The translations under genes were made by a program, and so were the position numbers. A stretch of 36,046 bases of DNA, from the IMG/VR virus record IMGVR_UViG_3300017749_000044, positions 1-36,046 of that record. The stretch is one strand, 5' to 3'. This DNA is from a virus. Position 1 is the first letter of the stretch. The number at the start of each line of letters is the position of its first letter. Of this stretch, positions 3,298-36,046 are shown piece by piece. Under the pieces are notes generated by a model. That model worked only from the letters and a program-made list of their open reading frames with translations, was not told where the DNA came from and made no database searches.

Positions 3298-4967
3298 GCA
3301 ACTCTACGTCCCTCTATTAAAGCGATGTCTCGAATGAGAGAGCCGTAAAACTTCCACTTGATCAAAGCGGTTGCTCGATACTTAGTCATGGAATAATCAT
3401 GTTTGAATTTGTTGTTCAGCATTTTTTGCTGTTTGTCAGTAGGTCGTTGTTGTAACCACGTTCGACTTTTTTTAGCAGAGTCACCTTGCTCATGCTTACA
3501 CATAAAATCATTAGCGACCGCTAGTGCGTGTAATCTTTCACCAACAAATAATTTGTATGCTTGACGACCTTCAACTCTACCAATGGCGCACCAAGTGGTA
3601 GGATTTAGTTGTAACATCATAGCGAAACAATCAAACCCGGTAGCCATAAAGGTGTCTCCCTGGCCGAATAAATCTACCCATAAAAATGGTGATTGTTTTA
3701 ATAGATCAACTTCACGCATTTTAAAATCAATGACAATTTCTTTACCCATTGATTGAATGCGTTTATTTTGAAAGCTGTACTCACAAAATGGACACTCTAA
3801 AGAAGCAAGAGGAACTTCTGCCAAACATTCTGGACAAGTTTTGTGGGGGGAGGTTCCAGAAGGTTTTTTATCCGTCTCTAGTAAGTTTACCTCTTGCTCT
3901 AATGTGCCGTGAAGGGAGGAGCTAATACCAAAATCCAACACGATACAATCTCGTTTATCGACACCAGGGAATTTATCTGGATCAACAATTCTTAGACCTC
4001 GACCGATCATCTGAATCATTGTTGATTTGTATGATGAAGGTCTAAGAAGGATAACGCAGCTTGTAGGCTGACTGTCAAAACCTTCAGTTAAAACCATAAC
4101 GCTAATTAAAACTTGGGTATTACCATAGTCGTAATTTTCGTAGATCTCTTTTCTTTCAGCTTCTGGTGTCTCACCTGTAATTAACTCTGCATTAATGTTA
4201 CTACTCATGAATTCATCTAACACGCTTATGCCGTGGGCCACTGTCGAACAAAAGATAATGGTCTTACGATCACCAGCTTTGTCCATCCAATGTTTTACCA
4301 CTGACTTGTTGTGTGCTTGTTTATTCATGATGTCCTCAACGTCTTGCATGTTGAAGTCGTTCATAGTTTGTCGAACTTCTTTTAACTTATCGTTACAACC
4401 TAAATCGATTTGATAAGTTACTGGTGGTACTAATAAACCACTCATAATTAATTCACCGATATGTACTTGATCAGCACAATTGTTCCAAATCTTACCTAAA
4501 GTTTTACCGTCACCTCGATTAGGTGTAGCGGTAACTCCAAAGATTTTTAAATTGGGGTTTAAAGATTTAGCGTGATCTAAAATTTTTAAATAACTATCAC
4601 TAGCTGCATGGTGGGCTTCATCAATAACACATAAGTCTATTGGTGGTAGGTTCCATAAGTTTTTTTCACGGCTCATAGTCTGTGCCATGGTGAAAATTGT
4701 TTTACCGCTATAGTCTTTGTTGTCACCATTGACAATGCTAGTAGCGATACTTGGATTTAATCTACTAAATGTTCCTAGATTTTGGTTCGTGAGTTCATCA
4801 CGATGTTGAATAACTAAAGTTTTATTAGATTTTATCTTGCCGATAATATCTGAAGTGACAACAGTTTTGCCATAGCCTGTCGCTGCTACCAAAAGGGTAT
4901 TACCTTTTGTATTAAGTGCTTCAATGCACTTGGTTACTGATTCTTCTTGGCGAGGTCTAAGAATCAT
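3294..4967 (-). CDS. Superfamily 2 DEAH-box DNA helicase (UvsW/RecG-like use) with zinc-finger insert
   Basis: About 557 residues. Counting from ATG 4967, motif I is ATGYGKT (29-35), motif II is DEAH (116-119), motif III is TATPN (near 147), and motif VI is QMIGRGLR (near 320), so both RecA-like lobes are complete. A CPEC...CPFC four-cysteine knuckle follows the helicase core near residues 375-395, and a C-terminal region of about 150 residues is unassigned. The start at 4967 is supported by AGAGG six bases upstream; an in-frame TTG at 4985 would add six residues. Relatives in phages unwind branched DNA during recombination-dependent replication and repair. It overlaps a short ORF upstream and an unknown gene downstream. 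Confidence 0.88.
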   Translation of the reverse strand: MILRPRQEESVTKCIEALNTKGNTLLVAATGYGKTVVTSDIIGKIKSNKTLVIQHRDELTNQNLGTFSRLNPSIATSIVNGDNKDYSGKTIFTMAQTMSREKNLWNLPPIDLCVIDEAHHAASDSYLKILDHAKSLNPNLKIFGVTATPNRGDGKTLGKIWNNCADQVHIGELIMSGLLVPPVTYQIDLGCNDKLKEVRQTMNDFNMQDVEDIMNKQAHNKSVVKHWMDKAGDRKTIIFCSTVAHGISVLDEFMSSNINAELITGETPEAERKEIYENYDYGNTQVLISVMVLTEGFDSQPTSCVILLRPSSYKSTMIQMIGRGLRIVDPDKFPGVDKRDCIVLDFGISSSLHGTLEQEVNLLETDKKPSGTSPHKTCPECLAEVPLASLECPFCEYSFQNKRIQSMGKEIVIDFKMREVDLLKQSPFLWVDLFGQGDTFMATGFDCFAMMLQLNPTTWCAIGRVEGRQAYKLFVGERLHALAVANDFMCKHEQGDSAKKSRTWLQQRPTDKQQKMLNNKFKHDYSMTKYRATALIKWKFYGSLIRDIALIEGRRVA

Positions 4968-7790: not shown

Positions 7791-8741
7791 ATGTTGCGAA
7801 AAAATTTAACTAATATTATAGAAAAAGCTAAAGTGAGCAAACCTACAGATATATCTACAGAGTCAAACGCAGGTATAGGATCATATTTTGACAAAGAGGG
7901 TAAGTATGTACAGCGTAGACCCGAAGATAATTTCTATTTTATTATTGACAGAATTCAGACTAAGCACGGTTTAAAGTTAAACGATGTTGCTACTAAAACA
8001 GGCGTTAGTGTTAAGACTTTATACAATATCCAAAAAGAATATAGAGAACCTGGTGAAGGTCACACTACTACTATTGGTGTGATTAATAAGGTATTTGCTG
8101 CTTACCCTAAATTTAAAAAAGAGTGGGAAGAATTTAAGGCAATTATGCCAATTGATAAAAAAGAGGATGTGGTTACAAATCTTACTTTTGATAAAGATAT
8201 GTATGCAACCATTCCAGTGTTGGGTAATTGGTATTCACAATTTGATGACTGTTCTATTTCTTCATTAGAACCGCAGCAAACGCCACAAATGCTATTTCCT
8301 AAATTCGTTTTAGGGGTAGGTGGTTATCAAGACGGACAGTCTTTAAAGGGTTGGTATGCTTTAAACTCACAATCTCCCACTTATAGTGGTGTTAGTATTA
8401 TGGCTGAAATTGGTGATGTTATTCCTGGCACTAAAATATACAGAGCTTCATTGAATAATTGGTCAATCATTAAATTTAAAGATCAAAAAAGATATTTTAA
8501 AGGTTTAATTTATGCGTGTTTAGTACCTTCTAAAAGTGGTTTTGTTAATTTACATTTATCATATAGTAACTATGAAGCTGAAGGTAAATCACCAACTAAA
8601 GTTATTAACGATATACCAATGTCAGATATTGAATACACAATTCCTTTTGTCTTAACAGTAAGTCAAGTCACAGTCGGCTTATGGCAAAGCAGAATCCAAA
8701 ACCAAAAAATAAACAACAATGACGAAAAGATTAAAGAATAA
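7791..8741 (+). CDS. CI-like lysogeny repressor with N-terminal HTH
   Basis: 316 residues, the first gene transcribed rightward from the divergent control region. A helix-turn-helix is visible near residues 60-85 (LNDVATKTGVSVKTLYNIQK), followed by a linker and a beta-rich C-terminal domain (about 140-305) resembling the size and position of LexA/CI dimerisation domains. I see no clear Ser-Lys protease dyad, so RecA-stimulated self-cleavage is uncertain. No Shine-Dalgarno sequence precedes the ATG; the leader is A/T-only. The gene overlaps the Xis-like gene by 23 bases and sits with the integrase, which supports a lysogeny-control role. Confidence 0.72.
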   Translation: MLRKNLTNIIEKAKVSKPTDISTESNAGIGSYFDKEGKYVQRRPEDNFYFIIDRIQTKHGLKLNDVATKTGVSVKTLYNIQKEYREPGEGHTTTIGVINKVFAAYPKFKKEWEEFKAIMPIDKKEDVVTNLTFDKDMYATIPVLGNWYSQFDDCSISSLEPQQTPQMLFPKFVLGVGGYQDGQSLKGWYALNSQSPTYSGVSIMAEIGDVIPGTKIYRASLNNWSIIKFKDQKRYFKGLIYACLVPSKSGFVNLHLSYSNYEAEGKSPTKVINDIPMSDIEYTIPFVLTVSQVTVGLWQSRIQNQKINNNDEKIKE

Positions 8742-8958
8742 AAAAGAGATTGCTACATATTTAGGATTAAGTTATCCCAATTTTTTGGCCAAAGAACACC
8801 GTTTACAGGCTGTTGGCTTCCCTAAATTAGAGCTGGTTGTTAACCGTTACGACATAAAAAAAGTCGATGCTTGGCTAGACAATGACACAATTCAGCGGGA
8901 TAGTGGCTTAAAAAAACATTATGAAAGTAAACTATCCCTACTTAAAAATAATCACTAG
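8719..8958 (+). CDS. AlpA/Xis-like excisionase or HTH regulator
   Basis: 79 residues with an N-terminal winged-helix/MerR-type HTH: NKKEIATYLGLSYPNFLAKE, then GFPKLELVVNRYDIKKVDAWL, the typical 'recognition helix - FP - R(Y/W)...vd.Wl' pattern of AlpA and phage excisionases. It overlaps the repressor 3' end by 23 bases and the integrase 5' end by 38 bases, so it is co-transcribed with both. Likely role: directing integrase toward excision by binding the attachment arms, or regulating the int promoter. Confidence 0.72.
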   Translation: MTKRLKNKKEIATYLGLSYPNFLAKEHRLQAVGFPKLELVVNRYDIKKVDAWLDNDTIQRDSGLKKHYESKLSLLKNNH

Positions 8959-9961
8959 ACGATCTCGTTCTAAAAAATCTAAAAAAATAATTAAAAAATA
9001 CTATTACTATTTTCGTAATAAAAAATTACATAAAATAAATGTATCACCAGACCATCCACAATTTCATAAAATGTATACCGCAATTGATAGCAGCTTCGAT
9101 GGTGCTACAACTCATGGTACTATTGAGTGGGCTTGTGATTGGTATCTAAAATCAAAACATCATAAGTCTCTTAGTGATTTTTCACAACGAGATGATAAAA
9201 AATTTTGTAAGGCTTTAAAGGAAGTGATAGGTGATTATAAATTAAATTTAATTACCGCTATAGATGTTAGAGATTTTAAAGATGACTATGCTGAAGTTAA
9301 ATCTAACGATGCAGCTAATAAGATTTTAAGTTTTATGCGTAAACTTTTTAATCAAGCTGAACTAAGAGAGTTGCAACCAATTAATCCGTTTGCGAAATAC
9401 GGCAAGTTAGCAACACTACCTAGGGATCAAAGGTGGGAAGATGATGAAATAGCTTTAGTGCATAAACATAAGGATGACTTGCATCCAAATAACTATTTAG
9501 TTTTTTTAATGGGATTGTATACGCTCCAAAGAATTGGAGACATTTTAGACCTAGATCGAGATCAATATGATGGTAAGAAAATATCTTTACAACAAGCAAA
9601 GACCTTGAAGAAATCAAGGAAATTGGTGGGTTTTCCAGTACATAAAGATTTAAAAATTGTACTTGATAAAAGTTTACAAGGACACAATCATCATAAACTG
9701 TTACAACAAAATTCGTACTGGAGTTTTAGAAAAGATTTTGATAACTTCAGACGCAAACATAATTTGTCGCAAAAAAGATTTCATGATTTACGCAGAACAG
9801 GAATGGTTAAAATGGCTGAGTTGGGAGTAAATGATATTATGATCTCGGCTGTATCTGGTCATAGTCTTGAGTCTACTAAAAGAATACTTGAAACTTACTT
9901 GCCGAGAAATTATAAAATGGCAAAGAAAGCAATGGATACTTGGGAAAGTGGAAACCCTTAA
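8921..9961 (+). CDS. int: Tyrosine-family site-specific integrase
   Basis: 346 residues. The basic N-terminus (RRSRSKKSKKIIKK) suits arm-site binding, residues ~65-155 form a core-binding SAM-like domain, and the catalytic domain follows. Visible catalytic residues: R204 in LQRIGDIL, a Lys in the ISLQQAKTLKK hairpin, H288-D-L-R291 in RFHDLRRTG, H314 in VSGHS, and the nucleophile most likely Y326 in ILETYLP. The His-to-Tyr spacing (12) is slightly longer than usual. It lies directly upstream of the partial tRNA-Phe attachment site and would insert the phage there. The stop codon falls inside the first arm-type repeat. No good Shine-Dalgarno site; translation may be coupled to the Xis-like gene. 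Confidence 0.93.
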   Translation: MKVNYPYLKIITRRSRSKKSKKIIKKYYYYFRNKKLHKINVSPDHPQFHKMYTAIDSSFDGATTHGTIEWACDWYLKSKHHKSLSDFSQRDDKKFCKALKEVIGDYKLNLITAIDVRDFKDDYAEVKSNDAANKILSFMRKLFNQAELRELQPINPFAKYGKLATLPRDQRWEDDEIALVHKHKDDLHPNNYLVFLMGLYTLQRIGDILDLDRDQYDGKKISLQQAKTLKKSRKLVGFPVHKDLKIVLDKSLQGHNHHKLLQQNSYWSFRKDFDNFRRKHNLSQKRFHDLRRTGMVKMAELGVNDIMISAVSGHSLESTKRILETYLPRNYKMAKKAMDTWESGNP

Positions 9962-14628: not shown

Positions 14629-17600
14629 TTACTTCATATCCTTTATATATTTTAAATATTCTGGTCGTTGAGATTTTCTTAATTTCTTAACTGTGTTGAT
14701 TGCCCTAGGATTTCTAAGGTTTCTAAACATTCTGCGGATGTAACCATTGTTAATAGGAATATCATCCTCTCGTGCTTCAGTTCGAATACGATTTAATTCT
14801 TCTCTAAACTTTTCAGGATCAGTTTTAGCATAACGTGTATATACATATGCCATGTCGGTATAAACTTTTTTGGTTTCACGATCTAAATTGTTATCATCAA
14901 ACATTAATAGTTCATTTAAGTCAGACTCTAATGAGAACTTAGTAGGGCGACCACCAATCATATAGTTGAATACATCAAGTCTAGATACTTTATTACTAAC
15001 TACTTGCCCTGATTTGTAACCACTAGTGTAAACAATATTAGATGGACTGGCTAAGTTCTTCATAACTGTTTCAGCATACAATTGTAAAGTACTCATATCG
15101 GTTGTTGCTAATACTGCCAAGTCTTGACCGCCTGCTAACATCTCAATACCTTTTAGTGGTTTACCAATACCACTTGTGATGTTAACTGTTTGATCACCAA
15201 AAGTAGCACCAGCTTCTTGTAGTTTACGAGCGTTAATTAAAGTAGATATAAACGGACCTTTAAATTGATCCATTAAGTTATCACCGATACTCAAACGATC
15301 ATTGTAAGGAATAAATCTATTACCTAAACCAACCCTAGATGATATATCTTGGCCAACTAAAGTAGGTAAACCTTTAACAAAAAGATCACCCATCATACCA
15401 GTGGCTTCACCGTTAGCATGAGCATCTAAATTAGTACGCATTAAAAATTTAACTGGTGAATATTCATCACCGAATAAGGATCTGATTAACCAATCAAGTG
15501 CTTGTAAACCAGGTAAGCCTAATGCTCCCGCTAGTATATAAATGTGTAGTAATTGTTTTAACATTACCTTACGCATCTCTTTAATTCTAGCGACTGCTTC
15601 TTCGGCAGTCTCAATAGTGCCATCGTCTTTTTCTAAACGAGTTTTTGGATTAAATGGATTGAGTTCAGCATCTTTCCATATACCTAAAGTAAATGCAGTT
15701 TGTTTGAATAAGAAGTTTTTAAATTGAGTTCCAACTTTTAAACCTTTTATTCTTAAAATTTTTGATGTATCAGATTTGTCATAGAAGAACTGTGTATCGT
15801 TCCACGCTTTTTGGCCATCAAATCTAGCTTGTTTTTCTGTCTTGCCGTTGTTGGTAGCTCTAGTATGTCCTGCCGTATAAGCCATCATACGGTTAAAGAC
15901 TTCTGCTTTTTGAAATAAGAACATAGAGTACTTAGCAATAGTGCCACGATCTAAATTCATTTCAGTACCATCAGTAAATAGACCTTGGTCTACATCTACA
16001 CCACCTTCATCAAATCTTTGATCCCACATAGTAGTAAACTCAGTGTCAGTACCAGTCATTTTACCACGAGTATAACGTGAAAGAATTCCATACGATTGTA
16101 CTATTTCGCTGTAACTATAAAGTGCTGAAGTATTAATAACAGTTTGCGATAAGTTAACAATCGGTGATAGTAAGTTCATAAACATACCTAATTTAGTATG
16201 TGCTGAGATACCTAAAATTGCTTGTATAGTAGGATCAAAAACTTTAGTTGATCCATCTTCGGATACTATACCTGCGTCTGAAGAGGCTTTTACTCTGCCG
16301 TAGACCATCATTCCTAACGGTACACCTATAATTAAACCAATAACAGGAGCGCCAAAAATACCTACGACACCTGCAGCTCCTAATCCTGTCATACCAGAAT
16401 AAAGTGTTGCTCGATCTAAGCCTTTAACTTTACCTTTAGTTAAGGTGTCAATACTATTATCAACTGTATTAAAAAATGAATCAAATACACTATCAAATGT
16501 ATTTTCGAAACCGCCTTCAACATTACTAATGTCATTGATAAAGTTTCTAAATTCGTCTTTCATTAAGTTATCAACTGATGAATACTTTCCATCGTCTAAT
16601 GCTTGTTGTATTTCATTAGCGTCATATTTCATTTCATCTAATATTAAGAAACGCATGACGTTTTGAATATGTGAACCTAATATCTTTTGAGTGTCAGTTG
16701 AGTAACCTTCAGCACCTAATCGTTCTTTTTCAAATGAAGCGGTAACTCTTCTATCACCCATTTTAACATTTAAGTCTCTATTAATTTGAGCTAATGATTG
16801 TCTACCTGTTCTAACATCTTCTAATTGATCCGCAGTTAAAGATACTGCTAACTTTTCAATTGTTTTATCATTAAGTATAGTTGCACTGACAGCACTGTCA
16901 GCCCAAGTTGTTCCTCTATTTACAACAACAATTTTATCGTCTTTATACTTAGGGTTAGCTTCAATAAAATTTTCCGCTGCTTGTCTTGCTTGAGCGTCTG
17001 TATCAAAATAACCTTGCTCACTAAATATGTTTTTAACTTTACCGTCCGCGCTAACAATTCTAACACTATGACTACCAAACCATATATGAGGCAGATAACC
17101 ATCATTAGTTTTAATATCAAACTCAGGTTTTATTCTAGAGTTCTCAATATCAATCATTACAATTTGACGATTTAATTCTAATTGATATGGGTTACTATTT
17201 TTGTAACCTCTCTTATAACCAATCTCTTTTTCAATTTCTCTAATACGATCGTTTAGTCTATTAATATTTTCTTCTCTAAGTTTAGCTTTCTCAGCGTTTC
17301 TTAATTTAGGAGTACGATAAACTCTTTTAAGTTCATTATATATTTCTTCACGTTCCTTTAAAGATTCAATAATATCAATCTCGGCTCTTTCTGCTTCAAA
17401 ATCAGCTTTAGCTTTAGCTATAGCTATTTCTTGAGCTGCTTTCACTGCATCACTTTCCATGATTAATTTTTCTAATTGTTTGCCGTTTGGGTTATTAACT
17501 TCTGGAAAATCTTTTTTAGTAAACTTCATTGACCAACCGTCAGGAAGTGCTACTACATAACCTAATATATTTTTAGTCTTAGGATCTTTAATACGTTCAA

Positions 17601-20600
17601 CAATTTCAACTTTACCTGCATCTTTAAACTTAGGTGTTTCAAGACTATCAAATGTTTTTTTTACGTCAGCTAATAAGTCGTTTAATCTTTTAGTAGCTTT
17701 AGGTCTGATGTTGTCGTTGTGTTCGTTAATTAATGTACCAAGTTCATCAAGGGTGTTACGAGTTTCATTGTAACCATCAATACCTTCTTTAGTTAACTTG
17801 ATTGTTTTATCACCAATAACAATACCTTCTTGTAATTCTGCTAATGAGTACTTTTTACCTTGGCGATCACCTTCCACTATAACTGCGGATACATCTGCAC
17901 GTTCAGCTTCAGGAACTTTACGCCAAACATCATTGTATCGCTTAAAGATACGACTCATTTTTGAGGTTACACTTTGTGTATTAAATTGAAATTTTTCTAT
18001 AACTTTTCTAACTTGAGGATAGACATAAGTACCATCAGGATTACGCATACTCCAAAGTTTTAACGGGCTTTGTACCCACTTTAAAAAATTTACTTTCCAT
18101 TTCTTAGGTGCTTTCTTATCTGAAGTACCATCACCGTCACCGCTATCACTTTCAACACCAGCTTCATCAGGCACAATTGGCTCTGCAAGTTCTGCAAGTT
18201 TTTCTTCTTCAGTCATCTCATCCACTATAACTTTAGCTTCTGCCTCAGTACGTTCAACGGACTTTTCAACTGCTTCAACAATTTCTGGGTCTTCTATAAT
18301 TTTACTTATGGGTAAACCATCTTTTAACTCACCGTTAAAACCAATATTAGTGTCTATGGATCTGTCAATGACACCTTCAAAGCCTAAAGGTTGATTTCTA
18401 TCTTCAACAACCCCCAACTCATTCATGACAAATCGTTCATCTAAATACTTTTGAATTCTTTTATCTGTAATATTAAACGGAGCTTTCTCATTTGGAACTC
18501 CATATCGGCTTGTTGCCTTTTGATCTTCAGCCGTATCAAAACGACCCCACGATGTAAAATTACTTCTTATACCAGGAGGTGGTTGTTTGTTAGGGTAATC
18601 GTGCGCCCACAATGGATTTTGTGATCTTGTCTCATACATTTTACTAATGCTGTCAACTGGAGTAATTGTGTTAAATAGGCGTTTCCAAAACTCTGCAACT
18701 TTTGCAAAAAATTTTTCTGATAAAGTTTTTGGTGGAATATTAGTTAATGCCCAACGTGAACTTTGTTCAGCAAACCATTCTGCAAAACTCCCATGATATA
18801 CTTGATCCTTATTTGGTATGTTATAGTCACGTTTTTTACTTGGTCTCTCAACACCACCGCTAACAACAGTTCCACCATATTTAACTTCATAATTTTGAAA
18901 GTCAGTAATGTCTTTCATCAACGCATCATTATTAAAACTACCATCGCTGTTGCGATATATCTCAGCAGTATGTTGATTTCCAGCAAAAGCAGCTAACCTA
19001 CTTAAAGGGTTACTTTTAGTAAACGTTAAGTTCTGATATGTTTTACCTATTTGTAAATATTTAAGATAATCAAGAAGAACTGCTCTTTTAGTTGCAGTAT
19101 CAGAATTGTTAAACAATTCCCATTCCATAATATGACCAACTTCATGAGCCACTGTTGAAAGAATACTCATGTCGTCAACAGATCTATTTAAATCAGCTTC
19201 ATTAAAAGTATCAAACATACGTTTAATTTGGTAACTTGTTGAGCTAGTGTCTAAATTAATAGTGTATGTTTTATTTATTTCAAAATCGGGACCAAATTCA
19301 TGTTGTATATGTCCTGCAAATTTTTTCTGTGCGCGTCCAACTATATAAACATTACCACGGGTTAAACCTTGTTCAGATAATTCATTCTTAAATTTTGCCC
19401 GTCTTTTATCACTGCTTGGATTTGCGTAAACACTATGTTTTTTTGCAACTTTTTCTGTCAAATGTCCATTACCATCTCGGTCTTTATCGGTAGTAACAAA
19501 TATATTAATGTTGCTCATATTTAATTTTGCTAACATCTGTTCCATATATTCTAATGCATAACTTGGAACTGTATCTGTACCGACAACTTTGCCATCTAAT
19601 GTGTCCCCAAATGGACCAAACTTAGGTGTCGATTTAGTTGGAACTGCTGGCCCTTTAGTTTTCTTCTTAACAACTTTTTTTTCTTCTTGACCAAAAGTAT
19701 TTGACCAAGAGCGTTTGTCATACTCTAACCTAGTGCCATCAGGTAAAAAGATATCTACAATTTCGTTACTGGCTTCATCAATTTGAGATTTTTGTTTAGC
19801 TCTTACCGCGGGCTTGTTTCGATCTGTGCCTTCTTCTACAAATTGTATCGGAATTGCATTAATACCTTCTTCAATATAACTGTTTAAGTTATTAAGGTTA
19901 TCTTGAGTATCATTTATTATATAACGGCTTCCAGTTTTACCGGGCATTTTAGTAACTATAATTTGTGGAATATTTGCCCCACCAACATTTGATTGATTAT
20001 CAAAATCTTGAAATGTAAATCTTGAATCAGAATTACTACCAGCTAATTGAAAAGCCCCTACACCAGATCGTAATTGCGCTCTAGTTGGATCAATAAATTT
20101 AGATTTTAAATTAAATGATTTAGCTAAATTTTCTGCTTGAGCTTTAGTAATAAACCCTACTTTACCGATAAACTTACCTTTAAGATCTTTTTTATCAATG
20201 GCTGCTCTAGTAGAATTTTGATCTGCTGAATTTTTATTAGCAGCTCTTGCACGTTGTACAGAAGGTCTGTTGTCTATCGTATAATAGCCATCATCAAGTA
20301 TAGTTGTCGCTGTATCTGCTATATCTTTTGGATCTAGTTCTTCAACAGTTTCTTTTACCGCTTTAGTTTCAGCAGTTGGTTTATTATAGATGCCTCTTTT
20401 TTCAGCTTCTTTTTTAAGAGCAAAACCGTCACGCATTGCACTGTAATAAGTGTCTTGTCCTGCACCAAACTTATCACTTGTTTTTTTACGGTCTTTAATT
20501 CTTGTTCTTCTATCTGCAAGAAGTGCTAATAATTGTTCATTAGATAAATCTTTAGGTTTGATTTTAGTTTCTTTGCCGTCAATACCACTTAATTCAAAAT

Positions 20601-22092
20601 TTTCATCTAAAGGATTTTTAGTATCATATTCAAATCCTAAAATTTGAGGCTCACCATCTAATTCAAAATCAACTTGACCTGTCTCTTGATCTCTTGAAAT
20701 AACTCTTACTCTTTTTTTTCTACCTTGAAGATCATAGACATCTATATGTGAACCATCATCAATATCATCTTTAGTAGTCTTTGGTCGCCAGTCAGGACCA
20801 TTGTCATCAAACGGAGTTAACTCAACTGTATCAAATCCAAACGGATCAAGTTCTTCATCTACGTCCATGTCGTAGTAATCGTCATCAGCTAATACAGTTT
20901 GAAAACCGCCAGTGGGTGTTGAGCCACCCATATTGTCAATGCCTTCAGCTATTTCTTTTTCTGCATCGATAGCAGCTTTGATTCTGCGTGTCTTTGCTTT
21001 AGCAAACGGATAAACAATTGCAGTTAAAGTACCGCCCGCAATACCACCTAAAATTCCTTCGTATTGATTTTCTGCCCAACCAATAGTTTTTTCTGGGTCT
21101 AAGAACATCTGCTCAATATAATCTTGTGCAATAGCTTGAGCGTATTCTTGGCCACCCTCAAGAAAGGCTCCAGACACCGCGCCTGTAAACACATCACCAG
21201 TAACTTGGGCTAATCTATTGTTGCCCATCTTTTTAGCAACACCTTCAATAATTGGATTCTTACCAATAATTTTACCAAGAATACTATATGACATAGCAGT
21301 CTTAGCTTTACCGCCCTTACTAAGTTTAGATAACTTACTTGCAACTAAACCTATTGGTGCTGCTTCTAATGTACCTAAACCAAAGGAAGCTCCTACAGCT
21401 TTTGAAAATTCAATATCATATTCATCATAACCTAAACTTCTAGCACGTTCAGCCATATCACCTGCTGCCATGCCACCACCTAAAGCAGCCATCATACCTA
21501 TACCTGCTAATGGCCCACCAACGGCAGTACCTGCTACACCTGCACCAATGAAACCACCGAGATTACCAAACACATAACCAAGGTCATCAACCCAATCATC
21601 GTCTGTAAAATCTACTTCACCAAACCATTCACGATTAGCATCACGGACAGCTTGTCCAGCTTTCCATAAAGTACTGTCATTACCACTTGCAAATTCTTCA
21701 AAGAAATTTTTATAATTATCATCAGTTGCAGTTCCTGCCGCAACTGCTTCAGAAATACCTTGTAACGCTAGACCACCAGTATCGATCACACCGCTCATAA
21801 GACTTTGACTAAATCTACTTATAGCTCCACGATCATCAAAAGAATTTTCAGTAACTTGTGGCACCAATAAATTACGCATAGTTGGATCGCCAGAAACATA
21901 TTGCGATACTTGAAATGCTTGAGCGTTAGGATTTAATTCTGAAAAATCCATTGACTGACCTTTTAATAAGGCAGGCTCATAATTAGCAAGTGGATTAGAG
22001 AGTAGATTAAGTTCAATATCTCTAGCGTCAGCATTCAGCCGTTGTTCTCTAGATGCAATTGGATTCTGCTCTTCTTCTAAGTTCTTAACCAT
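14629..22092 (-). CDS. Giant internal virion / polyvalent protein with zinc-metalloprotease motif
   Basis: 2487 residues, about a fifth of the window. Glycine/alanine-rich hydrophobic segments lie near residues 170-210, 345-365 and 1895-1935, suitable for membrane insertion. Residues 983-987 are HEVGH inside STVAHEVGHIMEW, the HExxH zinc-protease signature; E1105 in GSFAEWFAEQ is a plausible third ligand. A long charged coiled coil spans about 1490-1600. The size, position after the tail hub and other virion proteins, and membrane-active segments fit an ejection protein comparable in role to T7 gp16, or a polyvalent protein delivered with the DNA. I see no lytic-transglycosylase or RNA-polymerase motif. 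The protease might mature virion proteins, cut host envelope proteins or act in the cytoplasm after entry. Confidence 0.78.
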   Translation of the reverse strand: MVKNLEEEQNPIASREQRLNADARDIELNLLSNPLANYEPALLKGQSMDFSELNPNAQAFQVSQYVSGDPTMRNLLVPQVTENSFDDRGAISRFSQSLMSGVIDTGGLALQGISEAVAAGTATDDNYKNFFEEFASGNDSTLWKAGQAVRDANREWFGEVDFTDDDWVDDLGYVFGNLGGFIGAGVAGTAVGGPLAGIGMMAALGGGMAAGDMAERARSLGYDEYDIEFSKAVGASFGLGTLEAAPIGLVASKLSKLSKGGKAKTAMSYSILGKIIGKNPIIEGVAKKMGNNRLAQVTGDVFTGAVSGAFLEGGQEYAQAIAQDYIEQMFLDPEKTIGWAENQYEGILGGIAGGTLTAIVYPFAKAKTRRIKAAIDAEKEIAEGIDNMGGSTPTGGFQTVLADDDYYDMDVDEELDPFGFDTVELTPFDDNGPDWRPKTTKDDIDDGSHIDVYDLQGRKKRVRVISRDQETGQVDFELDGEPQILGFEYDTKNPLDENFELSGIDGKETKIKPKDLSNEQLLALLADRRTRIKDRKKTSDKFGAGQDTYYSAMRDGFALKKEAEKRGIYNKPTAETKAVKETVEELDPKDIADTATTILDDGYYTIDNRPSVQRARAANKNSADQNSTRAAIDKKDLKGKFIGKVGFITKAQAENLAKSFNLKSKFIDPTRAQLRSGVGAFQLAGSNSDSRFTFQDFDNQSNVGGANIPQIIVTKMPGKTGSRYIINDTQDNLNNLNSYIEEGINAIPIQFVEEGTDRNKPAVRAKQKSQIDEASNEIVDIFLPDGTRLEYDKRSWSNTFGQEEKKVVKKKTKGPAVPTKSTPKFGPFGDTLDGKVVGTDTVPSYALEYMEQMLAKLNMSNINIFVTTDKDRDGNGHLTEKVAKKHSVYANPSSDKRRAKFKNELSEQGLTRGNVYIVGRAQKKFAGHIQHEFGPDFEINKTYTINLDTSSTSYQIKRMFDTFNEADLNRSVDDMSILSTVAHEVGHIMEWELFNNSDTATKRAVLLDYLKYLQIGKTYQNLTFTKSNPLSRLAAFAGNQHTAEIYRNSDGSFNNDALMKDITDFQNYEVKYGGTVVSGGVERPSKKRDYNIPNKDQVYHGSFAEWFAEQSSRWALTNIPPKTLSEKFFAKVAEFWKRLFNTITPVDSISKMYETRSQNPLWAHDYPNKQPPPGIRSNFTSWGRFDTAEDQKATSRYGVPNEKAPFNITDKRIQKYLDERFVMNELGVVEDRNQPLGFEGVIDRSIDTNIGFNGELKDGLPISKIIEDPEIVEAVEKSVERTEAEAKVIVDEMTEEEKLAELAEPIVPDEAGVESDSGDGDGTSDKKAPKKWKVNFLKWVQSPLKLWSMRNPDGTYVYPQVRKVIEKFQFNTQSVTSKMSRIFKRYNDVWRKVPEAERADVSAVIVEGDRQGKKYSLAELQEGIVIGDKTIKLTKEGIDGYNETRNTLDELGTLINEHNDNIRPKATKRLNDLLADVKKTFDSLETPKFKDAGKVEIVERIKDPKTKNILGYVVALPDGWSMKFTKKDFPEVNNPNGKQLEKLIMESDAVKAAQEIAIAKAKADFEAERAEIDIIESLKEREEIYNELKRVYRTPKLRNAEKAKLREENINRLNDRIREIEKEIGYKRGYKNSNPYQLELNRQIVMIDIENSRIKPEFDIKTNDGYLPHIWFGSHSVRIVSADGKVKNIFSEQGYFDTDAQARQAAENFIEANPKYKDDKIVVVNRGTTWADSAVSATILNDKTIEKLAVSLTADQLEDVRTGRQSLAQINRDLNVKMGDRRVTASFEKERLGAEGYSTDTQKILGSHIQNVMRFLILDEMKYDANEIQQALDDGKYSSVDNLMKDEFRNFINDISNVEGGFENTFDSVFDSFFNTVDNSIDTLTKGKVKGLDRATLYSGMTGLGAAGVVGIFGAPVIGLIIGVPLGMMVYGRVKASSDAGIVSEDGSTKVFDPTIQAILGISAHTKLGMFMNLLSPIVNLSQTVINTSALYSYSEIVQSYGILSRYTRGKMTGTDTEFTTMWDQRFDEGGVDVDQGLFTDGTEMNLDRGTIAKYSMFLFQKAEVFNRMMAYTAGHTRATNNGKTEKQARFDGQKAWNDTQFFYDKSDTSKILRIKGLKVGTQFKNFLFKQTAFTLGIWKDAELNPFNPKTRLEKDDGTIETAEEAVARIKEMRKVMLKQLLHIYILAGALGLPGLQALDWLIRSLFGDEYSPVKFLMRTNLDAHANGEATGMMGDLFVKGLPTLVGQDISSRVGLGNRFIPYNDRLSIGDNLMDQFKGPFISTLINARKLQEAGATFGDQTVNITSGIGKPLKGIEMLAGGQDLAVLATTDMSTLQLYAETVMKNLASPSNIVYTSGYKSGQVVSNKVSRLDVFNYMIGGRPTKFSLESDLNELLMFDDNNLDRETKKVYTDMAYVYTRYAKTDPEKFREELNRIRTEAREDDIPINNGYIRRMFRNLRNPRAINTVKKLRKSQRPEYLKYIKDMK

Positions 22093-31143: not shown

Positions 31144-31338
31144 TTATCGTTCGTTAGCAAAGTAGCCACGATCTAAAAATCCTGTGTGGTCGTAACCTTT
31201 TAGTCTTGCACCTTTAGGATCGTTTTCCATGTTCTCAGTGCTATCTTTAACGCAATAACCTTTGTCATGATCCAAGTCACTCTTGTTCATTACGCCAGTC
31301 ATTTGGTTCTTATCGAATTTCTTTTTTTTCATTTCCAT
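31144..31338 (-). CDS. Small charged head-module protein with repeated GY motifs
   Basis: 64 residues beginning MEMKKKKFDKNQ, with repeated (K/R)GY units: DHDKGYCVK, RLKGYDHTG and LDRGYFANER. AAGGA precedes the ATG. It is immediately downstream of the terminator that follows the capsid gene. The shared motif with the 74-residue neighbour suggests a common partner, perhaps the capsid or packaged DNA. Function unknown. Confidence 0.58.
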   Translation of the reverse strand: MEMKKKKFDKNQMTGVMNKSDLDHDKGYCVKDSTENMENDPKGARLKGYDHTGFLDRGYFANER

Positions 31339-31351
31339 GATGATGTCCTTA

Positions 31352-31385
31352 TAAAAATGGAAGGAGTGCCATAAGCACTCCCTCC
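31352..31385 (-). terminator. Strong intrinsic terminator after the capsid gene
   Basis: On the minus strand, GGAGGGAGTGC pairs with GCACTCCTTCC (one G-U pair) around a five-base loop TTATG, giving an 11-bp stem, followed by ATTTTTAT. It begins eight bases after the major capsid stop. This would stop or attenuate transcription so that capsid and upstream genes are made in excess over tail genes. Confidence 0.85.
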
Positions 31386-31393
31386 AATTGGTA

Positions 31394-32356
31394 TTATGTA
31401 GCGGAATCCCACTTCACAATTCTAGCTTGTGCAGCTGAGTCGTGAACTAGACCAAAGCCACCTAGGTAGTACCATGCGATACCTCTAGAACGACCGTAGT
31501 CAGTAGGAATTTTACCACGCATTTCTTCAGGTATTGCAATTGCTTCGGCTACAGTATCTGCACCAAAGAAATAACAAGCATTAGATTTGCCGTTAGTAAA
31601 TTCTCCTGCTGGAGTTCCGAATCCACCTTTAGCAACATTTGTTTGCTCGATGAATCGTACGTTCTCATATCTTCCAATTTCGCCATTCATGATCATTTGG
31701 AAACCACCATCAGTGTACTGATGAATAGATTCTAAATCATTTTTAACGCCTCTGAAAGTTGATGGGTGAGCGATCGCATAGTAGTCATCATTGATGTATG
31801 CAGGAATATCTCTTTCCTTCATGATATCAACAATAGCTTTAACGTGATCTTTACCCATTGCAACGTCATTAGTTACTGAAGTAGTTCCGTCAGCATCTAG
31901 AGTTACAGCACTTGTTGATGTACCTCCAGTTGGAACTACAGCAAGTGGTGTAGCTTTAAACTGAGCATGTGCTGCTCCGTCAAATGCTTTCTTAGCATCG
32001 TTCTTTAGAACTTTGTTAATCACTTCTGTAACTGAGTGTTTTGATAAATCATCTAACTTACTAGAGTAGCCAACGCTGTTGCCGTACTCAGTAACTGTTA
32101 ATTGATTTTGTTCTACAGTAAAACTAGTTTCAGGAATTGCTGTGCCTTCAGTTAAAGCTGTACCTGCAGTACCTACATCGCTGTAGATATTCCAGTTAAA
32201 CTTGTCACCTTTAGATAGACCTTTATTAGTCGCATCTTTAGCATCACAAAACTGTCTAAACTTTACCATAGGTTGCACAGCCATTCTAAGTACATCAGAC
32301 AATTCGTCTGAATACATAAAACCACCGGCAGAATTTGTACCCCATACTTGAGCCAT
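31394..32356 (-). CDS. Major capsid protein (HK97-like fold expected)
   Basis: 320 residues, starting MAQVWGTNSAGGFMYSDELS, with an AGGAG site. Features typical of podovirus coat proteins: an N-terminal arm, KGDKFNWNIYSDVGTAG and VTEYGNSVGYSSKLDDLSK segments, a long helix (KHSVTEVINKVLKNDAKKAF), and the YAIAHPSTFRGVKNDLE / GEIGRYENVRFIE regions seen in N4-gp56-type capsid proteins. It directly follows an acidic scaffold gene and is followed by a strong terminator. It forms the icosahedral shell. Confidence 0.88.
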   Translation of the reverse strand: MAQVWGTNSAGGFMYSDELSDVLRMAVQPMVKFRQFCDAKDATNKGLSKGDKFNWNIYSDVGTAGTALTEGTAIPETSFTVEQNQLTVTEYGNSVGYSSKLDDLSKHSVTEVINKVLKNDAKKAFDGAAHAQFKATPLAVVPTGGTSTSAVTLDADGTTSVTNDVAMGKDHVKAIVDIMKERDIPAYINDDYYAIAHPSTFRGVKNDLESIHQYTDGGFQMIMNGEIGRYENVRFIEQTNVAKGGFGTPAGEFTNGKSNACYFFGADTVAEAIAIPEEMRGKIPTDYGRSRGIAWYYLGGFGLVHDSAAQARIVKWDSAT

Positions 32357-32396
32357 ATTCTTTATTCTCCTATTTTAGTTTATTTATTTGTTTAAG

Positions 32397-33548
32397 TTAA
32401 AGTTGACCTCGTCTTTTTTGCATCATACGCACAACATCCGATCGAGTAGGAGGTGGAGGAGTATCCTCGCCTATACTTGCGGTACTTGAGGTAGATGGTT
32501 TGACGACATCTGCGCTCTGCCTTTTAGCTTCAACTTTTTTTATTGACGCTTTAGGTTTCGCTTTTTTTTCACCATCAACATTGGACAGTTTAGATTTTGA
32601 CCATTGATCAACAGCCTCACACGCACTTCTAAATAACTCCGAGTCTGATCTCGAATTGCCACTTTGGGCATCTTCGGCTCTCATCTCGTGTACATATTGT
32701 GCAGCTAGGTATGTAGTATTTCGGTCTGCAAAAACATCTGGGTACTCTTGCCCCAGATCTTTTAATAGGTTATCGAAAGCAACTTTGTTTTGAACTTGCT
32801 GTGTCGCTTGTTCGGCTGCTTGTCGTGCAATCGCCATCTCATCAATTTTTGGTTGTTGAGGTGTGCGAGTTTGCAAAATTTGTTTTAAAGCATTTTTAGC
32901 TGTATCACCTTCACCAAATTGAATATCATGAACCAACTTATTAAGTTGTTCATCATTCATTTCTGATTCAGGTTTCTCTTCTACTTTCTCTTCTGCTTTT
33001 TGCTCTCTCAATTGTGCTAACTGTTCGGCTTGAGCCTTCATAGTTGCAGCTTCTTGAAATTTCTGCGTAGCAGAGTCTGCCATTTGAGCCATACGTTTTA
33101 ATTCATCAAGGCTAACATCTTTTTCTTGGCCATTGACTTTAAGTTTGTACGTCTCAGCTACAGGTGGTGTAGTAGGTTCTTCAGCTTCTTCTTCAACTGA
33201 TTCCGCTTCAACTTCTTCTTGCTCGGAATCACTTGCTTCTTGAAGAGGTTCGTCTTCAGCAATAACTTCGCTATCGGGTTCTGCTTTAACTTCTTCTTCT
33301 TGTTCATATGCTTCTGGTACTTCAGTTTTTAACTGCTCTTTTCTTGCAGCTATAATAGACTCCAAGGTATTAGTTCTTGGATTAAGTAGTACTCGTTCTT
33401 GGTCAGCAATCTCTTTACGTTTTTCTTGATCGCTTCTAGTATCTTCTTCGTTAACCTCAAGATGAGGTGTTTCTTTTGGGGCGTTCTCAACAACAGCTTC
33501 AGTAGCTTCAGGTTGAGAGATGCCCTCTTGGGTGATCTCTTCAGACAT
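32397..33548 (-). CDS. Scaffolding protein
   Basis: 383 residues with no hydrophobic core: a very acidic Glu/Ala-rich N-terminal half (for example VEAESVEEEAEEP near 116-128), a short beta-like segment (TYKLKVNGQEKDVSLDELKR), a helical middle (QEAATMKAQAEQLAQLREQ) and a basic C-terminal end (VVRMMQKRRGQL), the standard design of phage scaffolds whose basic tail contacts the coat. A consensus AGGAGG lies upstream. It precedes the capsid gene in the operon and would guide procapsid assembly. Confidence 0.85.
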   Translation of the reverse strand: MSEEITQEGISQPEATEAVVENAPKETPHLEVNEEDTRSDQEKRKEIADQERVLLNPRTNTLESIIAARKEQLKTEVPEAYEQEEEVKAEPDSEVIAEDEPLQEASDSEQEEVEAESVEEEAEEPTTPPVAETYKLKVNGQEKDVSLDELKRMAQMADSATQKFQEAATMKAQAEQLAQLREQKAEEKVEEKPESEMNDEQLNKLVHDIQFGEGDTAKNALKQILQTRTPQQPKIDEMAIARQAAEQATQQVQNKVAFDNLLKDLGQEYPDVFADRNTTYLAAQYVHEMRAEDAQSGNSRSDSELFRSACEAVDQWSKSKLSNVDGEKKAKPKASIKKVEAKRQSADVVKPSTSSTASIGEDTPPPPTRSDVVRMMQKRRGQL

Positions 33549-33562
33549 TATGTCCTCCTATG

Positions 33563-33889
33563 TTATTTGTTTAAATCTTCTTCTTGAATAATTTGCTCGG
33601 CAAGTATTCCTCGGTCGATTTGTTTCTTCAGATATTCTGTAAGCATAAAGAAAATTCTTGCATCATTTTGCAATTTTCTAACTGTGTCGACTTTAGTTGC
33701 ATCGGTTGCAATTAGTTTTCTTATAGCTTCACTAGAATCTTTTTTCGCCTGTGCTAAGACAGCCGATAAGCCTGTGTTGTCAGCTAATTCTTTTTCTATG
33801 TCCATTGCTTTACGAGCAATTTTGAACAGTGGGTCTTGAGCAAATTGATCAAACATTTGCTCTTCATTAAAATCTAAATCTGCGGGCAT
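33563..33889 (-). CDS. Small helical head-module protein
   Basis: 108 residues, all helical and charged, beginning MPADLDFNEEQMFDQFAQ and containing VRKLQNDARIFFMLTEYLKKQI near the C-terminus. AAGGA precedes the ATG. It lies between a nuclease-like gene and the scaffold. I recall similar short helical proteins near head genes of many podoviruses, but without an assigned role. Possibly a head-assembly accessory protein. Confidence 0.6.
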   Translation of the reverse strand: MPADLDFNEEQMFDQFAQDPLFKIARKAMDIEKELADNTGLSAVLAQAKKDSSEAIRKLIATDATKVDTVRKLQNDARIFFMLTEYLKKQIDRGILAEQIIQEEDLNK

Positions 33890-33897
33890 TTAGTTCC

Positions 33898-34260
33898 TTA
33901 CTTTAAAGGTTTAGTGAGAATTGATAGAGCTTGACTTTTTAATTTAAAAAAATGTTCTGCATCAACTAACACGAGGGGTTTAGTATTATTTTTTTTTATA
34001 ACCAACAAAGGCTCATACTGTTTACAGTTAGCCTTTGCTTGGTCATAGGCTTTCCATACATTAATCTTTTCTGTGTTTTTACATTCAATGCTGTATGGAA
34101 ATTTGCGTCTAGCAAGTGGAGACATCATTACATCTTCACCGCCAGCTCCCATTGAACGACTTTCAAGATCACCTTCTTCTAAATAAAAAATTTGTGTTAA
34201 AATATCTCGGACCCATTGTTGTAGTCTTCGACCTTTAGCTTTAGCACTTTGTGTTTTCAT
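33898..34260 (-). CDS. PD-(D/E)XK nuclease, Holliday-junction-resolvase-like
   Basis: 120 residues. AKAKGRRLQQWVRDIL forms the first helix, D43 lies in GAGGEDVMMSP, and E59-x-K61 in YSIECKNTEKI completes the catalytic set; a following KAYDQAKANCKQY helix and LLVIKKNNTKPLVLVD strands fit the resolvase-like fold. In phages, proteins of this kind resolve branched DNA before packaging (the role of T7 endonuclease I). Its place in the head module, apart from the early recombination genes, supports a packaging-time function. Confidence 0.75.
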   Translation of the reverse strand: MKTQSAKAKGRRLQQWVRDILTQIFYLEEGDLESRSMGAGGEDVMMSPLARRKFPYSIECKNTEKINVWKAYDQAKANCKQYEPLLVIKKNNTKPLVLVDAEHFFKLKSQALSILTKPLK

Positions 34261-34274
34261 GAGGGCAATCTTAA

Positions 34275-34403
34275 TTAGTAACCTTTACTTTTTTTTGGTT
34301 TTCCCATTTTACCAGGGTTACCTGCTTTAACTGCACCCATGTTTTTAGGTTTTTTACCTTTTACTTTTTTGTAAATTTTTTTACCTATCATAGAAACTAC
34401 CAT
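34275..34403 (-). CDS. Tiny Lys-rich protein (42 aa) ending SKGY
   Basis: ATG 34403 is preceded by AAGGA about eight bases upstream, inside the end of the preceding ORF. The product has about one-third lysine (KKVKGKKPKNMG, KPKKSKGY) and no acidic residues, so it is strongly basic. Its C-terminal SKGY is shared with the ORF just upstream. Likely binds DNA or another nucleic acid; a protamine-like head content protein is one possibility. Confidence 0.6.
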   Translation of the reverse strand: MVVSMIGKKIYKKVKGKKPKNMGAVKAGNPGKMGKPKKSKGY

Positions 34404-34405
34404 AA

Positions 34406-34507
34406 TTAATATCCTTTACTTTTGGTTTTTTTCTTTGTTTTCTTTTTCTTCTTAATTTTATCTTGCAAAAATTTAGGAAGAGTTTTTTGTGACTTTGTTA
34501 GTGACAT
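34406..34507 (-). CDS. Tiny Lys-rich protein (33 aa) ending SKGY
   Basis: ATG 34507 has an AGGAGA site six bases upstream. After MSLTKSQKTLPKFLQDKI the chain is almost only lysine and threonine, ending KSKGY. Nearly half of its residues are basic. It overlaps no other gene and lies between two similar small ORFs in the same direction. Function unknown; nucleic-acid binding is the most reasonable inference from composition. Confidence 0.58.
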   Translation of the reverse strand: MSLTKSQKTLPKFLQDKIKKKKKTKKKTKSKGY

Positions 34508-34520
34508 AAGGTTTCTCCTG

Positions 34521-34655
34521 TTATTTATTTTTCTTTTTTTTCTTAGGGAAGCCAGCTTTCATATTGGCGTAGGCTTTTTTAGAAATGGTACTGTTCTTTT
34601 TACTTCTAGATGTATTATTACGTTTTCTTTTATTTATATTTTCATAGAGTGACAT
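34521..34655 (-). CDS. Tiny basic protein (44 aa)
   Basis: ATG 34655 follows an ideal AAGGAG site five bases upstream. The product (MSLYENINKRKRNNTSRSKK...AGFPKKKKKNK) is rich in Lys, Arg, Asn and Ser and carries no hydrophobic segment. It is the first of three consecutive very small basic ORFs between the portal region and the nuclease. Each has its own ribosome site, which argues that they are real genes rather than chance frames. Confidence 0.62.
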   Translation of the reverse strand: MSLYENINKRKRNNTSRSKKNSTISKKAYANMKAGFPKKKKKNK

Positions 34656-34664
34656 AATTTCTCC

Positions 34665-34928
34665 TTACCACTTTACTTTGTTAGCCCAATAAGCCGCACT
34701 CATTTTGCCTTTAGCAATATTTTTACCGTGCCTAGCCTTAAAGGAATCTGATCTTTTAGTTTTAGTTCTGTCGCCAGTAACACCTTGTTGACCAAAACGA
34801 ATTGTCTTAACTTGGTCACCAGATTTTGCTACTACCACATGAGATTTAGTTTTGTGACTAGGTGTACGTTTAGGTTTATTGTACCCACTAACACCTGCAC
34901 TTTTTAGTCGAGAGTCTTTTTCGCTCAT
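34665..34928 (-). CDS. Small basic head-module protein (DUF6321-like)
   Basis: 87 residues: SAGVSGYNKPKRTPSHKTKS, SHVVVAKSGDQVKTIRFGQQG, then FKARHGKNIAKGKMSAAYWA. The KTIRFGQQG and RHGKNI(A)KGKMSAAYWA segments are well known from small proteins next to portal genes of marine phages; I believe they correspond to DUF6321, from memory. Basic and cytosolic; no enzymatic motif. No Shine-Dalgarno site is visible, so translation may be coupled to the preceding 35-residue ORF, which ends two bases upstream. Confidence 0.72.
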   Translation of the reverse strand: MSEKDSRLKSAGVSGYNKPKRTPSHKTKSHVVVAKSGDQVKTIRFGQQGVTGDRTKTKRSDSFKARHGKNIAKGKMSAAYWANKVKW

Positions 34929-34930
34929 GA

Positions 34931-35038
34931 TTAACCGAAGATGATTGCGACTAAAGCAATTACCGCTATTGATAATGCAGCTCGTTTGTGCATTGGCATA
35001 GCCATAATTTTATCTTTTATCCAATTAATTTTTTCCAT
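34931..35038 (-). CDS. 35-residue C-terminally anchored membrane peptide
   Basis: ATG 35038 overlaps the portal stop as TAATG, with AGGAG nine bases upstream. The peptide has an amphipathic, basic N-terminal half (MEKINWIKDKIMAMPMHKRA) and a single hydrophobic helix to the C-terminus (ALSIAVIALVAIIFG). It is a convincing translated small membrane protein. Its role is unknown; a membrane peptide in the head operon could aid host takeover or be a minor virion component. Confidence 0.6.
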   Translation of the reverse strand: MEKINWIKDKIMAMPMHKRAALSIAVIALVAIIFG

Positions 35039-36046
35039 TATCCTTGTCTCCTATTTTGATTGTTAACTAATGTCATTTGCACTTGTTGATCTGCTTGTCT
35101 TAATTTAATTTTGCTATCAATCATTTTCTCTGCTTCACGCAAAGTTAACTGTGCTTTTAATCTTTGACTTTCACTTTGTTGTTTCATTTGCTCCAACATT
35201 AAGTCACCTTGATTTTCCATTTCTTGCTCTTGGATGTTTGCTTGAGCTGCTATCTGAGCAATCTCAACTTTGTTTTGCATTTCTGCTTGTTTGTCATTTA
35301 ATGCTTGTTCCATTTGAGCAATTTGATCTTGCAATTGTTTCATTTGCGGATCATCTTCACCAAAATTAAAGAATCGCATTCCGTCTTTGTAACCAAGTTT
35401 GCCAAATATTTCGGTAATAATTTCTTTTACATTAAGTGCTTGAGCAACAGATGGACCAACTAGTTGTGAAACTGTTTGAGCGCCCATTGTAAATTTTTGT
35501 AATTGTTCCATCGGATTTGTTGAACCAATGCCGACATTAACATTAAGCGATAATTTTTGTTTTAAGATCTCGTCAGTCATTTCATCGGTACCGTAAGTTT
35601 TGTACATATCAATATCTTGAGCAGCTAACTGCATAACCACTTGATCAGTTTCATAACTTTGTTCTAGCTGAACTAGTTGACGTATTGTTGGTTCAACCCA
35701 AGTTTCAGAAAAAATTCTTAAATCATATTCACCAATTGCCGATGCAGCTCCACTTATAAGTTGCATTCCACCAACAGTTTCATTTAACGATTTGTTAGAT
35801 TGCACTGAACTTGTAGAAAAGTTTCCAGCAATTTCATCAAAGTCTAAGTTTAATCTATCTTGCTCAATGTAACTTGATTGCGTAACATCAGGCGCTCTAT
35901 TGATAACAACATCCGAAGACGGATCTTCCATTAATACAACACCGCCAGGTGTACTGCGAACCAGCGCGTTAAGATCAATATTCCTCCCTTGGCGGGCAAA
36001 CATTCTTCCGTTTAGTGCTAGTTTTATATTGTCAAGTCTCTGATTC
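35038..36046 (-). CDS. Portal protein, C-terminal part (cut by window edge)
   Basis: The frame stays open to the right edge; the first visible residues are NQRLDNIKLALNGRMFARQG, so the internal ATG at 36003 is not the true start. About 336 residues are present. LVRSTPGGVVLMEDPSSD, DEIAGNFSTSSVQSN and LNETVGGMQLISGAASA are the familiar podovirus portal segments, followed by a wing/stem region and a long Gln/Glu/Lys-rich coiled C-terminal tail (about 240-336), which may form the barrel reaching into the head. It begins the visible late operon; terminase is expected to the right of the window. Confidence 0.85.
   Translation of the reverse strand, partial: NQRLDNIKLALNGRMFARQGRNIDLNALVRSTPGGVVLMEDPSSDVVINRAPDVTQSSYIEQDRLNLDFDEIAGNFSTSSVQSNKSLNETVGGMQLISGAASAIGEYDLRIFSETWVEPTIRQLVQLEQSYETDQVVMQLAAQDIDMYKTYGTDEMTDEILKQKLSLNVNVGIGSTNPMEQLQKFTMGAQTVSQLVGPSVAQALNVKEIITEIFGKLGYKDGMRFFNFGEDDPQMKQLQDQIAQMEQALNDKQAEMQNKVEIAQIAAQANIQEQEMENQGDLMLEQMKQQSESQRLKAQLTLREAEKMIDSKIKLRQADQQVQMTLVNNQNRRQG

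Follow-up and report, generated by a model that had tools for sequence, protein, structure and literature searches.

Tandem lysine-rich mini-genes in a viral head module belong to an exchangeable island of small basic proteins

The internal head proteins of phage T4 and gp6.7 and gp7.3 of phage T7 are small, late virion components, some of them basic, whose genes lie near the head genes. Protamines and the baculovirus protein P6.9 are highly basic and bind packaged or condensed DNA. Basic virion proteins also occur in PBCV-1 (PMC3281028), and the capsid operon of ICP1 encodes gp125, a predicted prohead protease (PMC9040626 and PMC7567579). Here we analyzed a 36,046-base virus record (the window, meaning the whole stretch of DNA under analysis), in which three tandem Lys-rich genes encode proteins of 44, 33, and 42 residues (Table 1). 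These resemble the T4 internal proteins and T7 gp6.7/gp7.3 in size, charge, and vicinity to head genes, and their genes lie in the head module in a same-strand run with head genes, as expected for internal head proteins of the T4 kind. Protamines, P6.9, and the PBCV-1 proteins are DNA-bound by experiment; the three proteins here are Lys-rich, and one of them has a specific conserved core. We describe them as small basic head-module proteins set in an exchangeable island.

The original prediction described three tandem ORFs of 42, 33, and 44 residues, each with its own ribosome site. All three are present exactly where they had been placed. They are encoded by the minus strand, along which the 44-aa ORF comes first and the 42-aa ORF last, and are preceded by the Shine-Dalgarno-like sequences AAGGAG (44 aa), CAGGAG (33 aa), and AAAGGAT (42 aa). 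Two products, of 33 and 42 residues, end in SKGY as had been noted, and the 44-aa product ends in KKNK. The description of their composition as one-third to one-half basic is fair (Lys plus Arg 36% in the 44-aa, 42% in the 33-aa, and 33% in the 42-aa protein; net charge +15, +13, and +14), the basic residues being mainly Lys, with Arg at 0–7%. These are the only non-overlapped ORFs in the 36-kb window with a Lys plus Arg fraction of at least 0.28, and four other ORFs above this threshold each overlap a larger ORF. We shuffled the A-rich segment of 396 bp 2000 times at the dinucleotide level and never obtained three tandem ORFs of at least 30 residues (1699 had no ORF, 286 had one, and 15 had two); the segment starts 5 bases before the first start codon, so that ribosome sites were scored for two of the three ORFs. 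These shuffles, together with codon-level conservation of the 44-aa gene, rule out that the whole set arose by chance or as an artifact of A-rich DNA, and the three ORFs are real genes. Mini-genes of this kind escape annotation, being shorter than the usual length cut-offs, and their low-complexity sequence causes them to be missed by BLAST filters and, presumably, by trypsin-based proteomics.

Table 1. Features of the head module around the Lys-rich cassette, with positions in the window
Feature	Position	Strand	Support
C-terminal part of portal protein, continuing beyond the window	35038..36045	-	PF23899 SU10_portal E 1.9e-20; PHROG 1216
35-aa gene, C-terminal half hydrophobic, probably membrane-spanning	34931..35038	-	ribosome site; kept in relatives
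87-aa basic gene (b87), PHROG 7595	34665..34928	-	E 1.6e-34 (residues 3-87); dN/dS 0.06
44-aa Lys-rich gene (k44), LYxNI / PHROG 25774	34521..34655	-	profile match, dN/dS, relatives
33-aa Lys-rich gene (k33), C-terminal SKGY	34406..34507	-	relative in L172; look-alikes in HTVC168P and L260
Direct repeat copy 2, over 33-aa gene end and 42-aa ribosome site	34403..34432		
42-aa Lys-rich gene (k42), C-terminal SKGY	34275..34403	-	aligns with genes of L006-L008
Direct repeat copy 1, over 42-aa gene end	34272..34301		
120-aa RusA-like / PDDEXK nuclease	33898..34260	-	PHROG 244 E 2.4e-20; PF24608 E 2e-5 (just short of the curated cut-off)
108-aa acidic gene, head module	33563..33889	-	weak match to portal PHROG, E 0.006; position conserved
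383-aa scaffold-like protein, acidic N-terminal part	32397..33548	-	precedes capsid gene
Major capsid protein	31394..32356	-	PHROG 1357 E 1.8e-25; PF25209 E 1.8e-9
Terminator-like hairpin, strong, intrinsic type	31358..31386	-	13-pair stem and T-run

The predicted placement in a head module is borne out by the minus-strand gene order, which runs from the portal gene through the 35-aa and 87-aa genes, the three Lys-rich genes, the nuclease, the 108-aa gene, and the scaffold-like gene to the major capsid gene. The scaffold-like protein has a net charge of -34, of which residues 1–128 account for -31. Profile searches with it returned no family match, and its position and acidity suggest that it is the scaffold. 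The same-strand run from portal to capsid has its strong terminator-like hairpin only past the capsid gene, directly after it; the remaining coding-strand sites are weak and lie within the portal and scaffold genes. The cassette is probably co-transcribed with the head genes. No Rfam match to an RNA element was found within positions 31300–36046. The genes for the 87-, 44-, 33-, and 42-aa proteins make up a "basic island" between portal and scaffold in what is probably a late head-assembly operon.

The 44-aa protein matches PHROG 25774 over its full length (profile 1–42/42, E 5.9e-21). Members of this widespread family include Syn5 gp59 and HTVC019P gp30, and PHROG 16028 is its sister group (profile-profile probability 93%, E 3e-7). 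As PHROG 25774 is catalogued without an assigned function, membership alone explains nothing. An alignment of 43 members defines the core LYxNIxxRKKxGTSRxKxKSTISxKAYANMKAGFP, with invariant L, Y, N, N, S, and T positions. The gene is under strong purifying selection (dN/dS 0.14 and 0.12 compared with two relatives). A tblastn search against phages with the 44-aa query gave no match, and the filtering of low-complexity sequence is the probable cause, since a relative with fewer repeats did return matches as a query. The 44-aa profile has no match among the sequences of solved structures, and the structural model consists of two short helices and a basic tail (mean pLDDT 79, pTM 0.34).

We compared the neighborhoods of 44-aa relatives in 18 annotated phage records. 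In 14 of these a gene annotated with a head or packaging function is no more than 3 kb away from the relative, whose position inside the head module differs between phages. Seven relatives are located between scaffold/head-assembly and capsid genes (HTVC019P, HTVC119P, HTVC021P, HTVC168P, CRP-804, S-RIP2, and S-CBP4), and another seven have a portal, terminase, or capsid gene within 3 kb (MEP301, HTVC028P, Venkman, Syn5, P-SCSP1u, P-GSP1, and CRP-810). Two are found outside the head module (HTVC024P and CRP-5), and two have only hypothetical neighbors and are uninformative (P60 and DC33). The gene set of HTVC168P closely mirrors that of the window: its gp29–gp31, between scaffold and capsid, comprise a peptide resembling the 33-aa protein, a member of the LYxNI family, and a protein of the DUF6321 type, the last assigned by alignment to two Pfam-confirmed members. 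GenBank lists the LYxNI protein of Venkman (L335:1325-1465) as "Gp59-like DNA recombinase" and that of CRP-810 (L341:2501-2659) as "ribonucleotide reductase A subunit," both probably misnomers, and the LYxNI copy in P60 carries no annotation.

Among viral contigs, many of them short, we inspected the best 80 of at least 132 confirmed loci of 44-aa relatives, which are not independent of one another. With 16 head and 17 replication queries, we recognized a head or packaging gene within 5 kb in 38 of these 80 loci and a replication gene in 5; any head, tail, or internal-virion gene is found at that distance in 45. A basic partner is encoded within 700 bp in 45 of the same 80 loci, either a protein of the 87-aa type (18 loci) or a DUF6321 protein (27 loci), and 35 have no recognized partner. 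The two types never occur together (chance 1.8e-4, if the 80 loci were independent). Among the loci listed, we counted 83 small, free ORFs that are rich in Lys/Arg and have a ribosome site in the 149 kb lying up to 1 kb from 44-aa relatives, and 9 such ORFs in 381 kb at greater distance. When ORFs with the LYxN motif are left out, 35 remain near the relatives in the loci listed, about 10 times the far density; these 35 include the known partners and one LWxN variant.

DUF6321 (PF19846; P-SCSP1u gp16) comprises small, basic proteins encoded next to LYxNI genes where the 87-aa type is missing, and both types have an SFxAR stretch. Homology between the two is unsupported by profile comparison: the 87-aa protein has no DUF6321 match in Pfam, and hhalign gave a probability of 20% over 15 columns. 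Compared with sequences of solved structures, each profile has one weak match (E 0.61 for the 87-aa type and 0.79 for DUF6321). The 87-aa protein resembles residues 191–261 of ICP1 gp125 (34% identity, E 1e-9 in a single comparison), in which residues 37–160 form a Peptidase_S78_2 (XkdF) domain. Both domains are also present in a 336-aa protein of Vibrio phage 10AMN, in the reverse order. The gp125 gene is located between portal and scaffold, as is the 87-aa gene here; unlike gp125, the 87-aa protein has no protease domain, and the three Lys-rich proteins share no family with gp125. The 87-aa gene encodes a stand-alone form of a domain that is fused to prohead proteases in ICP1 and 10AMN. Its model shows a three-stranded sheet and helices (pLDDT 82, pTM 0.69; three of five models have a mean pLDDT below 56). 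A search of the PDB with this model gave no match at E ≤0.001 (best VIA-align Z 3.3), and relatives in a viral library include XkdF- and ChaB-named proteins and ICP1 ORF125. PHROG 1530, which is labeled "DNA methyltransferase," matches an XkdF-type protease protein (L246:3752-4762), and this label may be wrong. In HMO-2011, gene 68 (L245:2642-3679; 345 aa, 26% Lys plus Arg) overlaps an 87-aa-type gene and encodes a Lys/Ala-rich protein that reads as histone-H1-like and has no family match.

The 33- and 42-aa proteins do not belong to PHROG 25774; their best PHROG hits are to other families (E 0.9 and 0.14, respectively), and the 42-aa protein has no family match among PHROG and Pfam profiles. 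Genes resembling the 33-aa gene adjoin 44-aa-type genes in HTVC168P (gp29) and L260. Conservation of the frames in relatives, which had been named as a check, holds for the 44-aa gene (dN/dS 0.12–0.14), stands for the 33-aa gene on the one close relative found, in L172 (86% identity, dN/dS 0.11 over only 16 synonymous sites), and is loose for the 42-aa gene, which aligns with 56/57-aa genes of L006–L008 with in-frame indels and a dN/dS of ∼0.6. The 42-aa gene evolves fast. Both SKGY ends fall in a 30-nt direct repeat (80% identity), the copies of which are spaced by 131 bp, or one gene length, and AAAGGA in the end of the 33-aa gene doubles as the ribosome site of the 42-aa gene. A 21-base stretch of the repeat, identical at 19 positions and matched by none of 60 shuffles, extends beyond the stop codons. 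As the ends lie in a DNA repeat, the case for SKGY as an independent peptide motif is weakened; as both mismatches are synonymous, constraint at the protein level is possible. A Tyr codon (TAC/TAT) closes the final cassette gene of the window, as it does in each of the seven other cassette loci compared (L005–L011); L172 is an exception. The Tyr/SKGY ends may reflect shared DNA at the cassette edge or selection on the protein, both being compatible with the data.

We next consider close relatives, defined as 15 loci with a capsid gene at least 85% identical, of which 14 were counted because L167 stops short of the cassette. Lys-rich genes are present in 12 of the 14, in seven forms. The form seen in the window occurs in four loci (L001–L004; 99.98% identity over 4.5 kb), and the others encode proteins of 44+30, 48+56 (two loci), 48+57, 46+47+37 (two loci), and 58+29 aa, or a 30-aa protein behind the remnant of a 44-aa gene. 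The identity of the flanking DNA is high and breaks at the cassette: L005 is 97.1% identical until the 44-aa gene ends, and identity resumes, at 99.5%, within the final codons of the 42-aa gene. In L012 and L013 (contigs of L173 and L174) the 35-aa gene is followed directly by the nuclease, which makes the locus a naturally empty site, and the cassette is therefore probably dispensable in these two relatives. The 87-aa gene is found in 11 of the 14 loci; the three contigs without it here, all of them fragments, have none elsewhere. In one of these relatives, L009 (the contig of L170; positions 3815–3890), the 87-aa gene is deleted; its start codon now precedes the 44-aa gene from around codon 27 onward, which leaves a 19-aa ORF, and the junction is possibly a misassembly. 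Beyond the close relatives, we examined 28 of 65 loci with a distant major capsid protein (L176–L240), some of them incomplete and with L191 left out because its upstream part is too short, and found no flagged Lys-rich ORF from portal to capsid; a flagged ORF in L186 is Arg-rich and was judged spurious, and L197 and L204 have one each upstream of the portal gene. The 44- and 87-aa genes seem to be the conserved parts, and the later Lys-rich genes an exchangeable, fast-turning accessory set.

As to function, the reading we would tentatively put first is that the small basic proteins act inside the procapsid, with scaffold or DNA as their target. The proteins would be made alongside scaffold and capsid, and their charge would draw them into the growing procapsid, toward the scaffold with its very acidic N-terminal part and, at a later stage, toward DNA as it enters. 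Once inside, they might aid assembly, scaffold exit, or DNA organization, or be retained as minor internal head proteins; they would then be located in the procapsid, bind scaffold or DNA, and be present in the virion. Since the scaffold-like protein is very acidic, basic proteins made next to it could indeed be drawn in, but the scaffolds of cassette-less relatives are similarly acidic (net -28 and -25), and the charge match is therefore not specific. In favor of this reading are the purifying selection on the 44-aa gene and its long core, the head or packaging genes near most of its annotated relatives, the frequent basic partner, the gene set of HTVC168P, and the strong terminator-like hairpin after the capsid gene. 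The fusion of the 87-aa-type domain to a protease places this domain near the procapsid in other phages, which gives the best, though indirect, hint for the basic island, but this evidence bears on the 87-aa neighbor and not on the three genes. Against a procapsid role, L173 and L174 lack the whole cassette and L170 lacks the 87-aa gene, so that the set is probably not essential there, 2 of the 18 annotated relatives lie outside the head module, and 35 of the best 80 of at least 132 confirmed loci are partnerless. The literature searched, as far as its text was accessible, contained no virion proteomics for any relative, and the full-text literature, with subscription papers mostly outside its scope, contained no functional study of these families.

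Ranking next after the procapsid role, and possible though rather doubtful to us, the proteins could be late cytoplasmic binders of phage or host DNA or RNA, with the head operon providing only strong late expression. Their high positive charge and the modeled helices and basic tail of the 44-aa protein would suit such a role, as would gene positions that vary by phage and include sites beside terminase, lysis, or replication genes; the fact that the relatives lie close to head genes far more often than to replication genes (in the best 80 of at least 132 loci) and the fusion of the neighboring 87-aa domain to a head protease argue against it. The original prediction had instead likened the proteins to protamines or histone tails that condense or neutralize packaged DNA, which we regard as unlikely despite a net charge of +13 to +15 in 33–44 residues and the location in the head module. 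The proteins are Lys-rich and not Arg-rich, the 44-aa family has its specific core, and some relatives lack the cassette altogether. For an assumed genome of 40 kb and an average one of the three proteins, neutralizing 10% of the phosphates takes ∼570 copies and 50% takes ∼2,860, and an assumed 415 copies of each protein would cover 22%; with hundreds to thousands of copies required, bulk neutralization is unlikely and local effects are possible. According to PMC3281028, there is no evidence for a large contribution of basic proteins to the neutralization of phage dsDNA.

Cationic peptides can disturb membranes. Delivery into the host had been raised as well, and ejected or host-acting peptides that disturb membranes, the nucleoid, or defense would agree with this general property and with the fast, accessory-like turnover of the last cassette genes. 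We give this little credence, as a gene caught in an arms race would be less conserved than the 44-aa family is; a PADLOC scan of five proteins returned no defense-family match, and a link to defense was rejected. It is similarly improbable that an A-rich spacer, repeatedly exchanged or duplicated between direct repeats, gave rise to the 42-aa ORF, and perhaps also to the 33-aa ORF, as a by-product with little function. The dN/dS of ∼0.6 for the 42-aa gene, its replacement by unrelated Lys-rich ORFs in relatives, and the repeat flanking it at one gene length are what such an origin would produce, but a basic ORF is retained in 12 of 14 close relatives despite differing sequences, and shuffles fail to yield such ORFs.

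Returning to the procapsid role, we entertain, with some doubt, a broader version in which an interchangeable kit of basic mini-proteins is encoded in the head operons of phages, short-tailed marine ones among them. It would consist of a conserved LYxNI protein, one partner of either the 87-aa type or DUF6321, and fast-swapping Lys-rich peptides. This kit might act inside the procapsid, and the 87-aa domain might be a procapsid-targeting module that is fused elsewhere to the maturation protease. If the procapsid role is true, a large uncharacterized set of marine phage proteins gains a testable role, and protein help in organizing packaged phage DNA becomes testable in cultured pelagiphages and cyanophages.

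For the nuclease downstream of the cassette (33898–34260), 449 of 456 pattern matches were confirmed as relatives, and these sit in loci with very different neighbors, suggesting that it may travel on its own. Elsewhere in the window, a single ORF of 2487 aa occupies positions 14629–22092 of the late region. Two plus-strand ORFs (7791–8741 and 8921–9961), judged by eye, presumably encode a repressor and a tyrosine recombinase, respectively, which suggests a temperate phage.
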